Shown here piece after piece: positions 209-58,902 of a DNA stretch of 64,000 bases. The DNA comes from Melioribacteraceae bacterium (lineage in GTDB: Bacteria > Bacteroidota > Ignavibacteria > Ignavibacteriales > Melioribacteraceae). The stretch covers positions 1 to 64,000 of the forward strand of contig WGCV01000062.1 of assembly GCA_015493615.1 (NCBI GenBank). The letters run 5' to 3'. Under the pieces are notes generated by a model. It ran no database searches, was not told the DNA's origin, and worked only from the letters and a program-made list of their open reading frames with translations. Position 1 is the first letter of the stretch. Each line of letters opens with the position of its first letter. The position numbers and the translations under genes were made by a program.

Positions 209-484
209 ATGAGAAAATTTATATCATTTATATTATTAATAATCTTTCTATTCATTAGCGATGGCTATTATATTTTTTTTGAATATTTACGATATAATTT
301 ACATCAAGAAATTAAACACGATATAAAAAACGGATTAGAGGAGAAACAACTTTCACTTATAGTTGTACCTTTTAATGTTGAAAAAGAAATTTTCTGGATT
401 AAAAAAAATAAAGAATTTCGATACAGAGGGGCAATGTATGATGTTGTCAGAATTGAAATTAAAGGTCGGAAAAAGCATTACTAG
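209..484 (+). pseudogene. Small secreted/anchored hypothetical protein, truncated by a repeat element
   Basis: A 91-codon frame begins with a hydrophobic segment (residues about 5-25, signal peptide or membrane anchor) followed by a charged region. Residues around 70-90 (FRYRGAMYDVV, then a basic stretch) resemble a small Bacteroidetes hypothetical family whose members, as I recall them, continue further. Here the frame stops at TAG 482-484, and the G of that stop is the first base of the element at 484-674. The natural C terminus therefore seems to have been lost by the insertion. The protein may still be made in shortened form. Its function is unknown. Confidence 0.5.
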
Positions 485-674
485 AAGGCTTTGCATAACC
501 CCGAAATTTGTCATTCTGATCCTCCGCCACGGCGGAGCGGGAGAAGAATCTCAGTACCGGTTATTATACCGGATCTCGAGATATTTCGGACGGCTTACAC
601 TCCTCCTCCTCCGCTTTGGCGGATTGGCGGATTGGCGGACTCAATATGACAAATTTAGGTTTTGTAAAGGTCTC
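484..674 (+). repeat. MITE-like element, family A, copy 1
   Basis: 191-bp copy with left end GAAGGCTTTGCATAACC and right end GGTTTTGTAAAGGTCTC. It carries a palindromic CCGCCACGGCGG module in the left arm and an extended GGCGGATTGGCGGATTGGCGG module in the right arm. The flanking 5-mers (TACTA and GCTTA) do not match well, so any target duplication has decayed. The left end supplies the last base of the stop codon of the preceding ORF. Confidence 0.8.
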
Positions 675-680
675 GCTTAA

Positions 681-2564: not shown

Positions 2565-2696
2565 CTTCCTGTTTTTCCTTGATTATGATAATTTTATAAA
2601 AGAATAAATATAAATTTATTACGATATAAAAGGAAAGGAATTCTTTCAAATCAATATAAATGTCATTAAATTACAACTCAATTTTTTTTACTATAA

Positions 2697-2856
2697 GAAT
2701 GCTTTGCATGACCTGGCAATATGTCATTCTGAATGAAGCGAAGCGGAGTGAAGAATCTCCGAACCGGTAATTTTTCCGAATTTAGAGATATTTCGGACGG
2801 CTTACACTCCGCCATGGCGGACTCAATATGACAATTTTAGGTTTTGCAAAGGTTTA
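2697..2856 (+). repeat. MITE-like element, family A, copy 2
   Basis: 160-bp copy flanked by an exact 5-bp target duplication, TATAA (2692-2696 and 2857-2861). The left end is GAATGCTTTGC and the right end GCAAAGGTTTA, both slightly diverged from consensus. It contains the GAAGCGAAGCGGAGTGAAG module on the left and CCGCCATGGCGG on the right. It lies in the 313-bp gap between the divergent rmuC and DUF6165-like genes. The rest of that gap is AT-rich with nothing further that I recognise. Confidence 0.88.
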
Positions 2857-2877
2857 TATAATTAAAGGAGAAAAAGT

Positions 2878-12723: not shown

Positions 12724-12730
12724 ATTATTA

Positions 12731-12880
12731 GAGACCTTTGCAAAACCTAAAATTGTCATATTGAGGACGGTGAGAGCCGTCCGAAATATCTCTAAACTCG
12801 GTACTATTACTGGTTTTGAGATTCTTCATTCCGCTTCGCTTCATTCAGAATGACAAATTTCGGGGTTATGCAAAGCCTTC
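12731..12880 (-). repeat. MITE-like element, family A, copy 3
   Basis: 150-bp copy in reverse orientation (GAGACCTTTGCAAAACC on the left, GGTTATGCAAAGCCTTC on the right). It has an exact 5-bp target duplication, TATTA, at 12726-12730 and 12881-12885. It carries the GAATGAAGCGAAGCGGAAT module. It is a close match to the copy at 58661. Confidence 0.9.
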
Positions 12881-12955
12881 TATTAACTAATTCTTCTATT
12901 AATCCGCCTTGGCGGAATGAATCTTTCGGATTCAGTTGTTAATAATTAAATTTTA

Positions 12956-24907: not shown

Positions 24908-24942
24908 TTAAACCTCCAAGGTTTTTAAAACCTTGGAGGTTT
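24908..24942 (+). repeat. 35-bp palindromic repeat, copy 1 (also terminator)
   Basis: AAACCTCCAAGG-TTTTTAAAA-CCTTGGAGGTTT, continuing into a T-run to 24946. It is identical over 35 bp and in the same orientation to 25622-25656. Together the two copies bracket the mazEF module. Lying just after the ALDH7-like gene, it can act as its terminator, and read from the other side it lies just after mazF. Confidence 0.85.
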
Positions 24943-24954
24943 TTTTCAAAGCGG

Positions 24955-25621: not shown

Positions 25622-25656
25622 TTAAACCTCCAAGGTTTTTAAAACCTTGGAGGTTT
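25622..25656 (-). repeat. 35-bp palindromic repeat, copy 2 (also terminator)
   Basis: Identical to 24908-24942 and in the same orientation. It lies 9 bp beyond the stop of the peptidase M15-like gene (minus strand), where it may terminate that transcript. A related palindrome with a different stem sequence is at 56539-56572. Confidence 0.85.
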
Positions 25657-25664
25657 GGTTAAAT

Positions 25665-39146: not shown

Positions 39147-39261
39147 GCGGTTTTTATTCCGCTCTTAAATGTTAATTTTGTAATTTTAAGAATGTGTTTG
39201 TAGTTTTATGGTTTTTGAGGTTGTTCATTATTGGTAACTCAGCTAAGCTGAATTTTATTGA

Positions 39262-39441
39262 GAAGGCTTGCATTTGTCATTCTGAGCCTCCGCCACGGCG
39301 GAGCGGGAGAAGAATCTCAGGACGGTGAATCAGACTAAGGTTGAGATTTTTCGTACGGCTTGTATCTCCGCCCCTAACAAAAAGCAGTTAGAGTAAGCTT
39401 AGCGGACTCTAAATGACAATATTAGGTTTTGCAAAGGTCAA
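39262..39441 (+). repeat. MITE-like element, family A, copy 5
   Basis: 180-bp copy with the left end shortened (GAAGGCTTGCATTTGTCATT) and the right end GGTTTTGCAAAGGTCAA. It contains the CCGCCACGGCGG module on the left and an unusual right-arm insertion (CCCCTAACAAAAAGCAGTTAG-like). The flanks ATTGA and TTTAA agree in only 3 of 5 bases. Confidence 0.75.
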
Positions 39442-40412: not shown

Positions 40413-40455
40413 TTTTAGAATTTTTTAACATATCGTTTTTTGAAATTAACTTAGA

Positions 40456-40605
40456 GAAGGCTTTGCATAACCCTGTAAAATGTCATTCTGAATGGAGCGG
40501 AGCGAAATGAAGAATCTCAAAACCGGTAATTATACCGAATCTAGAGATATTTCGGACGGTTTCCACCGTCCTCAATATGACAAATTTAGGTTGTGCAAAG
40601 GTCTC
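40456..40605 (+). repeat. MITE-like element, family A, copy 6
   Basis: 150-bp near-consensus copy (GAAGGCTTTGCATAACC left, GGTTGTGCAAAGGTCTC right) with the left module AATGGAGCGGAGCGAAATGA. The flanks TTAGA and TTATA match in 4 of 5 bases. It ends 26 bp before the tsaD start codon, so the tsaD promoter must lie within or upstream of it. Confidence 0.83.
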
Positions 40606-40631
40606 TTATATACCAACAGAAAGGAAACCGC

Positions 40632-50877: not shown

Positions 50878-50947
50878 AGATTATGCAAAATGTTATATAC
50901 TATTGCGGATTCCAAATTGGTCGCATGTCGGGATAAATTGATTGGTA

Positions 50948-51096
50948 GAAGGTTTTGCATAACTCCGAAATTTGTCATTCTGATCCCGCCTTGGCGGGAG
51001 AAGAATCTCAAAATCGGTAATAGTACCGAATTTAGAGATATTTCGGACGGCTCCCACCGTCCTCAATATGACAATTTTAGGTTTTGCAAAGGTCTC
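50948..51096 (+). repeat. MITE-like element, family A, copy 7
   Basis: 149-bp copy with exact target duplication TGGTA (50943-50947 and 51097-51101). It carries the left module CCCGCCTTGGCGGGA in place of the more common GAAGCGAAGCGG module. It lies in the 391-bp gap 50878-51268. The rest of the gap is AT-rich, with no gene seen. Confidence 0.9.
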
Positions 51097-51268
51097 TGGT
51101 AAACAATGATAATTTTACCGAATATTGTTCCGGTTTAATTAATAAATATTCCGAACATGTAGAAAAGGGATAAAATTACAATTTAGGCAATCGGAAAGAT
51201 GATTGTTTTGTTCCGGTTGCCACTTTTTTAAATAAACTAATATATCATATAAAAAAAGGAAATAAAAA

Positions 51269-52613: not shown

Positions 52614-52648
52614 CGCTGCCGTTACCACTTTCCCGTTTTTTAATTTAA

Positions 52649-52736
52649 AAAGACTTTGCATAATCTGGAAATATGTCATTCTGAGCCTCTGCCTTAGCAT
52701 ACTCAATATGACATTTATAAGTTTTGCAAAGGTTTC
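52649..52736 (+). repeat. MITE-like element, family A, copy 8 (internally deleted)
   Basis: Only 88 bp: left end region ACTTTGCATAATCTGG, then TATGTCATTCTGAGCCTCTGCC, and directly CTCAATATGAC and the right end GTTTTGCAAAGGTTTC. The central hairpin half (GAAGAATCTC to GAGATATTTC) is missing. The flanks TTTAA and TAAAA do not match well. It ends 38 bp before the CDF start. Confidence 0.75.
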
Positions 52737-52774
52737 TAAAAACTTATTTTGAGACTAATTTATTAGGAGATTTT

Positions 52775-54675: not shown

Positions 54676-54681
54676 TTATTT

Positions 54682-54841
54682 GAAAGCTTTGCAAAACCTA
54701 AATTTGTCATATTGAGTCCGCCATGGCGGAGTGTAAGCCGTCCGAAATATCTCTAAATTCGGTAAAATTACGAGTTTTGAGATTCTTCTCCCGCAAAGGC
54801 GGGATCAGAATGACATATAAAGTAGGTTATGGAAAGCCTTC
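54682..54841 (-). repeat. MITE-like element, family A, copy 9
   Basis: 160-bp copy in reverse orientation with exact target duplication TATTT (54677-54681 and 54842-54846). It has CCGCCATGGCGG and CCCGCAAAGGCGGGA modules. It starts 6 bp after the porin stop and ends 39 bp before the redoxin start. Confidence 0.9.
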
Positions 54842-54880
54842 TATTTGTGTGAATTAGAAAAAAAAATGTGTGACTGAAAA

Positions 54881-56465: not shown

Positions 56466-56538
56466 TTTATAAATTTGTTTCAATTCTATTGTGCTCGATA
56501 GAAATACTTACATAATAAGCGAGTATATATGGTGCGCC

Positions 56539-56572
56539 AAACCTCCGATGTTTTCAAAACATCGGAGGTTTA
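56539..56572 (+). repeat. 34-bp palindrome, related to the mazEF-flanking repeats
   Basis: AAACCTCCGATG-TTTTCAAAAC-ATCGGAGGTTTA. It has the same outer AAACCTCC/GGAGGTTT arms as the repeats at 24908 and 25622, with a different inner stem (GATG instead of AAGG). It is probably a member of the same palindromic repeat family. Confidence 0.7.
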
Positions 56573-56620
56573 AAAATAATAGTGAAAAGGGGAGAGCTAA
56601 ATTAAATCACGGGAAAAGGT

Positions 56621-57172: not shown

Positions 57173-57196
57173 TTCATCTCCTTCCGATTTATTTTA

Positions 57197-57383
57197 AAAA
57201 GTTTAGCAAAACCTAAATTTGTCATATTGAGTCCGCCAAGCTTTCCTCAACTGTTTGTTGTTGGGGTCGGAGTGTAAGCTATCCGAAATATCTCTAAGCT
57301 CGGTATAATTACCGGTTTTGAGATTCTTCATTCCGCTTTGCTCCATTCAGAATGACAAATAAAGTAGGTTATGCAAAGCATTA
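57197..57383 (-). repeat. MITE-like element, family A, copy 10
   Basis: 187-bp copy in reverse orientation with exact target duplication TTTTA (57192-57196 and 57384-57388). It includes an extra inserted palindromic module (CTTTCCTCAACTGTTTGTTG-like) near 57241. Its last three bases, TTA at 57381-57383, are the stop codon (TAA) of the gene to the right, so that gene was probably shortened or its end altered by the insertion. Confidence 0.88.
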
Positions 57384-57920
57384 TTTTAAGCTTCGCTCGA
57401 TTTCAGAAAGCGTTTCTTCGTCAAGATTTTTATAATAGAGAACAGGCGCTCTGAATCGCGGATCCTTTCCGGTTGAAGTCATCGGAATAAGAAGCTCAAA
57501 TTCATCACGGTAATCGTTCCAATCCATTAAAACGGGTGTTTCAAGACCATCTTTGACGCAATCATCTAAAGTCGGGACAAAATAAATTTTGGCAAAAGCG
57601 TTTTTTAATTCTCCGAGCCGGTCTTCCTTCAGATAAGTTACTACCGGTATTTGAGAAAGTTGGTCAACGGGAATTCCGGTTTTCATTTTATAAACCAAAG
57701 TTATTCCTTCCCTTAAACGCTTCTCTTTTGTATCGGGGGAAAGTTCTCTTTTCTGAGCTGTTCTCCCTATCAAGACTGCGTCTGCGTAATCGCTGCGGAG
57801 CATCCCCAATGCCTGCGCCGCGCTGCCGGCGTCAATTATTTCAACAGCGTGTGAATTTTCTTTTATCTCAGATGCGTAAGTTGCCATTGTGGGGCAAAAA
57901 GCAATCGTAATTTTTTCCAT
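57381..57920 (-). CDS. Uncharacterised protein, cotranscribed with tetR
   Basis: 179 residues, no signal peptide or membrane helix. The middle segment (AAQALGMLRSDYADAVLIGRTAQKRELSPDTKEKRL) resembles by eye the ligand-binding core of periplasmic-binding-like domains, but the similarity is weak. I do not recognise the family. The stop codon is provided by the end of family A copy 10, so the native protein may have been longer. It lies 27 bp after the TetR gene with an AGAGG ribosome site, so it is probably under TetR control. Confidence 0.6.
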   Translation of the reverse strand: MEKITIAFCPTMATYASEIKENSHAVEIIDAGSAAQALGMLRSDYADAVLIGRTAQKRELSPDTKEKRLREGITLVYKMKTGIPVDQLSQIPVVTYLKEDRLGELKNAFAKIYFVPTLDDCVKDGLETPVLMDWNDYRDEFELLIPMTSTGKDPRFRAPVLYYKNLDEETLSEIERSLK

Positions 57921-58592: not shown

Positions 58593-58660
58593 GAAAAATG
58601 AGACTTCCCGGCGTTGAGTAGATTTATTTCCGAATCAGAATGTGTTAAATCCGATTATTA

Positions 58661-58820
58661 GAAGGCTTTGCATAACCCCGAAATTTGTCATTCTGAATGA
58701 AGCGAAGCGGAATGAAGAATCTCAAAACCGGTAATAATACCGAATTTAGAGATATTTCGGACGGCTCCCACTCCGCCTTAGTGGACTCAATATGACAATT
58801 TTAGGTTTTGCAAAGGTCTC
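58661..58820 (+). repeat. MITE-like element, family A, copy 11
   Basis: 160-bp copy close to consensus with exact target duplication TATTA (58656-58660 and 58821-58825). It carries the GAAGCGAAGCGGAATGAAG module on the left and CCGCCTTAGTGGA on the right. It lies between tetR and the efflux operon it probably controls, within the 449-bp gap 58536-58984. Confidence 0.92.
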
Positions 58821-58902
58821 TATTAGACTGAATCTGTTGAAGTTCCACTCTTTGTTTTATTTGTGAACCGTTATCTTTTATGAGAATCTTTCGAAAAAAT
58901 TA

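Follow-up and report, generated by a model that had tools for sequence, protein, structure and literature searches.

An IS5-type MITE with an inverted REP-like pair whose hairpin tips are probably replaced in place in a Melioribacteraceae bacterium

REPINs go together with RAYTs. REPs tagged with TGTC or CGTC are predominantly head-to-head dimers whose transposase is not known, and some CGTC dimers sit within longer palindromes (PMC3733652). BrickBuilt and other IS5-related MITEs have been described from Porphyromonas gingivalis (PMC4596501). In the literature on the REP motif we found no description of the element treated here, termed family A, which is a real and mobile composite of an IS5 MITE and a TGTC-tagged REP dimer.

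The element under study lies in the genome of a Melioribacteraceae bacterium (GCA_015493615.1, here G000; 3.147 Mb in 67 contigs), on contig WGCV01000062.1 (C62), the analysed 64,000 nucleotides of which are referred to as the window. It occupies positions 58661-58820 on the forward strand, exactly one unit of 160 bp, and is bounded by TATTA on the left (58656-58660) and on the right (58821-58825); the sequence-only reading had placed it to the base. The left terminal inverted repeat, GAAGGCTTTGCATAACC (58661-58677, forward strand), is defined by a scan for the end motif and by the ends of other copies. It is followed by a REP-like arm of the form TGTCATTCTGA-tip-GAAGAATCTC (58686-58723, forward strand), which occurs in other genera without these terminal repeats, and whose exchangeable tip module is of class A among the copies (ATGAAGCGAAGCGGAAT; 58697-58713, forward strand). 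The central spacer AAAACCGGTAATAATACCGAATTTA (58724-58748, forward strand), recognised from the copies and from folding, holds the palindromic centre GGTAATAATACC. The right arm (58749-58797, reverse strand), likewise delimited by the copies and by other genera, is the reverse complement of TGTCATATTGAG-tip-GAAATATCTC; on the forward strand it reads GAGATATTTC, the right tip and TCAATATGACA, and precedes the right terminal repeat GGTTTTGCAAAGGTCTC (58804-58820, reverse strand; reverse complement GAGACCTTTGCAAAACC), set by ends and flanks. Its tip, a class P1 module (GGACGGCTCCCACTCCGCCTTAGTGGAC; 58759-58786, forward strand), was assigned from the module classes and from the comparison of shared sites.

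The two inner arms are inverted hairpins that are alike without being identical, and the element as a whole bears out the long imperfect palindrome proposed from the letters alone: its arms are imperfect inverted repeats about GGTAATAATACC that fold into a single long hairpin. The fold is far better than those of shuffled sequences, as RNA of the forward strand (-47.3 kcal/mol, z -4.66), as RNA of the reverse strand (-56.9, z -6.83) and as DNA (z -4.59), with none of 200 shuffles matching it.

About nine fairly complete copies of family A, together with deletion derivatives, are present in the window. They include a copy at 479-678 (forward strand), with a left module of the CCTCCGCC type and a nested right module, (TCC)4/(TTGGCGGA)3; copies with target-site duplications evident from flank comparison at 12727-12885 (reverse strand, TAATA) and 50944-51099 (forward strand, TGGTA, left module of the CCCGCC type); and a forward-strand derivative at 52647-52738 that has lost its middle and kept both outer arms. 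A profile made from seed copies gave 162 hits, 91 of them full copies, in 1.257 Mb, a sample that covers 40% of the genome as stretches partly picked around known hits; a first, less biased sample, made up of the window and a further 400 kb, yielded about 30 copies. Allowing at most one mismatch, the end motif has 360 matches across all 3.147 Mb and none for the reversed control, which corresponds to roughly 200 copies genome-wide. Family A elements measure approximately 140-257 bp, leaving no space for a transposase gene, and lie mainly outside open reading frames (8 of 86 copies overlap one, as called by a crude caller at a coding density of 85%).

Two further sites are of note. A derivative of about 43 bp, consisting of the ends only, sits within a repeat (GTTTCAATTCTAATATAGTTCGATTAAAAT) of a putative CRISPR array (L073, C2:150001-170000; at about C2:169440-169700), where it is flanked by TTCTA on both sides and the intact repeats of the array represent the empty site. 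At C41:165250-165880 (L062) a 95-bp flank and a family A element are tandemly duplicated; the duplicates (C41:165460 and C41:165712) are identical over their left 110 bp and differ in their right tips, and one of the copies is flanked by TAAAA on one side and TATTA on the other, the hybrid that crossing-over between two elements would leave.

Transposition of the element is recorded in its flanks. In 61 of 85 full copies the 5 bp to the left match the 5 bp to the right exactly (shuffled mean 5.15, maximum 13), with the consensus TNNNA; this identity exists at a length of five only, other lengths being at or near chance. A sister species (G004), syntenic with G000 at about 90% DNA identity, provides empty and filled sites. 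At locus L096, G000 has a single TATTA (...AAATATTAAATAAAC...) where G004 has an element between TATTA and TATTA in near-identical surroundings; further one-sided insertions are found at L092, L086 and L168, and the window copy at 54680-54844 (reverse strand) is missing from G004, which has the empty site. The focal copy (58656-58825 with its duplications) has no counterpart in G004, in a stretch too diverged for a clean empty site. With shared terminal inverted repeats, a fixed 5-bp target-site duplication, no transposase gene, small size and high copy number, family A is an IS5-type MITE. The sequence-only reading was right about the palindrome and its modules and had overlooked this MITE nature, with its IS5-type ends and 5-bp duplication.

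The assignment to IS5 rests on the ends. The right end, GAGACCTTTGCAAAA, is identical over 15 bp (15/15) to the ends of ISNme1 of the IS5 family (PMC4596501, Table 2). An IS5 element in another genome of the same bacterial family (L101 in G059) has the ends GAATCCTTTGCAAAACCTAA, which matches family A at 18 of 20 positions, and GAGGGCTTTGCAAAAC; it encodes a transposase of 328 amino acids scoring 258 bits on NF033581 (cut-off 140), and its flanks, TATTA/TAATA, form an inexact duplication. Genus g13 has the same REP pair between other ends (GAAACCTCTGAAAAATTATTC), flanked by AATAA on both sides (L051), and an IS5 element of g13 (L110) carries GAAACCTCTGAAATATTATTC, 20 of 21 positions of which are identical to the ends of the g13 REP pair. 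These sequences suggest that more than one IS5 end type has carried the REP pair. No intact IS5 transposase with family A ends was found in G000, the sole IS5 transposase trace there being a 3' fragment (L083) where contig C5 runs out; no end of the element was recognised beside it. An IS1380-type element on C27 (L074) was discarded as the source on account of its different ends, and two DDE_Tnp_1 genes (L076, L084) were discarded as movers, as they are not bounded by family A ends. The ends of L074 (CCCAAAATTGTCA..) have the word TTGTCA in common with the inner arms of family A, possibly by chance.

Organisation as an inverted REP doublet that folds as a hairpin is also seen in REPINs (PMC3116915), and the genome has five Y1 transposase genes that could supply a RAYT. 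Family A as a REPIN moved by such an enzyme, with incidental terminal repeats, is nevertheless extremely improbable: IS5 ends and an exact 5-bp duplication are the mark of a DDE enzyme, and the count of target-site duplications and the empty and filled sites strongly disfavour it. RAYTs were rejected as movers of family A, since the Y1 genes examined (L032-L035) lie beside different REPs of their own. The repeats amid which these four genes (L032, L033, L034 and L035) each lie are of the GCTCCTACGGAGC, CTGCTTCGCAG, CCTTCAAGG and GTAGCACAG types.

As cargo the MITE carries two unlike REP-like hairpins, TGTCATTCTGA..GAAGAATCTC and TGTCATATTGAG..GAAATATCTC, arranged as an inverted heterodimer. 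Beyond G000 and G004, DNA matches mostly reduce to the left arm, and the pattern TGTCATTCTGA..GAAGAATCTC, with many palindromic tip types, occurs in 34 of 75 genomes of the family, with none for the reversed control; the REP-like cargo is thus spread more widely than its MITE carrier. By its tag, its imperfect short stem, its mostly intergenic location and its many copies, the left arm appears to belong to the TGTC/CGTC-tagged REP superfamily. That the arms pair had been seen from the letters; that each is a REP-like hairpin of other genera had not. CGTC-type REPs have been described without a dedicated transposase (PMC3733652); carriage within an IS5 MITE provides a tangible means for a REP dimer to spread.

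The tips of the two hairpins are variable. All four modules that the sequence-only reading had named were found: GAAGCGAAGC in the element at 58661, CCGCCACGGCGG at 479-678, CCCGCCTTGGCGGGA at 50944 and CCGCCATGGCGG at 2692. Among 79 parsed copies, left tips are of the GAAGC type (38), CCCGCC (22) or CCTCCGCC (18), and right tips are CCGTCC (29), nested TCCGCC palindromes P1-P3 (28), TTCGCC (12) or a second inserted palindrome (9). The repertoires are specific to the arm, with 78 of 79 left modules in classes A, B and C and 78 of 79 right modules in classes S, P, F and Q, as homologous copying predicts. Left and right module classes are independent of each other (mutual information, p=0.46), and modules are independent of backbone classes (p 0.12-0.64), with a weak residual association at p<=0.05 in 6 of 35 variable columns for the left module and 6 of 35 for the right, about 2 being expected. 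The backbone classes next to the terminal repeat and in the spacer are strongly linked (p=0.0005), and the left module lies in between. Simple crossing-over was rejected as the source of reassortment, because it would break this intact linkage at least as fast as it shifts the left module; whole-element conversion was rejected because tips would travel with their backbones, which they do not. In one pair of copies with a 100% identical backbone (115 columns) both modules differ, and nearest-backbone neighbours share modules at chance level only, so that turnover of the tips outpaces mutation of the backbone. A few fixed subfamilies, named beforehand as one half of the refuting outcome, are ruled out as an explanation of the modules.

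Modules differ at fixed sites too: six insertions are common to G000 and G004, and at five of them at least one module is not the same. At 57196-57386 (reverse strand), the two species agree in flanks, in ends and in the left tip, down to rare variants, and carry different right tips, a nested CCCC..GGGG palindrome in one species and a P2 type in the other. At 2692-2858 (forward strand, duplication TATAA), G000 and G004 have the same flanks, the same left arm with its tip and rare variants, and the same right end, and differ in the right tip. These two cases are the strongest, as their shared decayed ends are hard to reconcile with independent insertion. Modules also differ at an old copy at 39261-39440 (forward strand; the left module), at C35:42825 and at C9a:14940, the weakest case, where the ends differ too; at 40453-40609 (forward strand) they are the same in both species. 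The recombination or replacement within the arms proposed from sequence alone is therefore supported: modules reassort among copies, and they differ between the sister species where both have the element at one and the same position.

Because G004 is a fragmented, low-coverage metagenome-assembled genome (about 570 contigs, depth near 2-3), the swaps might be artefacts of short-read metagenome assembly, which we regard as very unlikely. The modules lie no more than about 60-75 bp from unique flank, within one short read; assembly mixing would scramble the linkage between the terminal-repeat-proximal and spacer classes, which is intact; and modules assort independently inside G000 alone, an assembly of only 67 contigs. 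Family A gives unusually clear evidence of hairpin-tip replacement at fixed sites, and the shared marked loci of two sister species allow tests of its timing and mechanism.

Taken as a whole, family A is probably an IS5-type MITE with an inverted REP-like pair whose tips are replaced in place by short-patch copying. An IS5-family transposase acting in trans would recognise both 17-bp ends; insertion duplicates 5 bp (TNNNA) of AT-rich intergenic DNA. With this cargo the element is one long palindrome built of two side hairpins, and in both of them in-place replacement of the tip far outpaces backbone mutation. Short patches would be copied non-reciprocally from other members of the family, by gene conversion or by template switching at a stalled hairpin, and new tip types would arise when small GC-rich palindromes land in the tips. 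The most likely route that we infer is short-patch ectopic conversion among the copies, with such palindromes, which also cap unrelated repeat families in this genome, as the supply of new tips; short-patch copying would explain the separate tip repertoires of the two arms. No donor-recipient pair for tip copying was identified. SbcD (TIGR00619), the most natural candidate for setting off repair at hairpin tips, was not detected in G000, with matches in 13 of 14 control genomes; its curated cut-off is passed by only 2 of 75 relatives. SbcCD cleavage was for this reason set aside as a trigger of tip repair, and a lack of SbcD may help to explain the tolerance of long palindromes.

Several observations could also be accommodated if the tips were tiny mobile palindromes that enter and leave hairpin tips without homology, with no role for copying between elements. 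The sampled DNA holds 27 occurrences of TCCGCCNNGGCGGA that do not belong to family A, against about 0.02 expected (for example at 12903 and 16721 in the window), and this sequence caps several unrelated repeat families (GTCATTGCGAG.., GTAGCACAG.. and CCTTCAA.. beside the RAYT gene L034). A second mini-palindrome, CCCCRAC..GTYGGGG, is found within tips; several copies also have it between TGTCA and TTCTGA, where no duplication accompanies it. The 28 P-type modules all have either as many TCC units as TTGGCGGA units or one TCC more, so that both sides of the nested stem grow together. We consider this account possible yet distinctly less probable than copying: the left and right module sets differ, CCCGCCNNGGCGGG is limited to family A (50 inside, 0 outside), homologous copying more readily accounts for a few types recurring exactly in one arm, and no transposase for such palindromes was identified, the Y1 genes L032-L035 lying amid other repeats. 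Some TCCGCCNNGGCGGA sites seem to be flanked by short direct repeats, such as GTAA. More tentative still, and somewhat doubtful, is that hairpin tips are a shared currency, with a dedicated or hairpin-specific process replacing them in place without flanking homology and the same GC-rich palindromes serving unrelated REP and MITE families. Tip replacement at the loci shared by the two sister species bears on how palindromic repeats diversify yet remain palindromic.

Pairing of the arms might instead be kept by selection for a stable RNA hairpin, protecting 3' ends or terminating transcription, with modules free to vary since only pairing matters. All module tips are palindromic and folding is strong; stop codons are close to the copies (median distance 73 bp), and of 52 copies in tandem gene contexts 38 share one orientation (p=0.0012). 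Such selection is unlikely, given that young transposed copies would look paired without it, that 10 of 73 copies lie between divergent genes, and that the 15 long-range backbone pairs, 98.9% paired, hardly vary, just 2 of 1140 cells being compensatory. The sequence-only reading had held hairpin-RNA selection possible and had looked to compensatory changes between the arms, counting their absence against it; there are none to speak of, and in so invariant a backbone covariation says nothing either way. The orientation bias and the proximity to stop codons are compatible with some secondary influence on transcripts. Against Rfam, family A has no match above the gathering score, the matches in the window being tRNAs only. 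Another palindromic repeat, TTAAACCTCCAAGGTTTTTAAAACCTTGGAGGTTT (24908-24949, 25622-25663 and 56537-56578 in the window), has compensated variation among its copies and looks like a terminator or a separate REP.

Family A can be compared with several described systems. The terminal repeats of IS5-family insertion sequences (ISNme1, ISPg1 and L101) are alike, whereas family A lacks coding capacity. To our knowledge, the description of REPINs includes neither IS5-type terminal repeats nor a 5-bp target-site duplication, both of which family A has. The likeness to REPINs lies in an inverted REP doublet with its spacer as the replicating unit (PMC3116915). With the CGTC/TGTC REPs, family A has in common the TGTC tag, a stem starting with A or T, heterodimers and variable tip length; those REPs have no known transposase, whereas the family A dimer lies within a DDE-type MITE with target duplication (PMC3733652). 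The four published CGTC families have stems of 8-9 bp and loops of 4-5 bp, with some variation allowed; family A tips are about 16-55 nt. BrickBuilt is likewise an intergenic MITE with strong predicted hairpins, near-identical IS5 ends (GAGACCTT.GCA) and an internal repeat that was trapped and spread, in its case a 23-nt tandem repeat in 19 copies with variable target-site duplications (PMC4596501). Family A, unlike BrickBuilt, carries an inverted REP-like pair in roughly 200 copies, with a regular 5-bp duplication and exchangeable tips.
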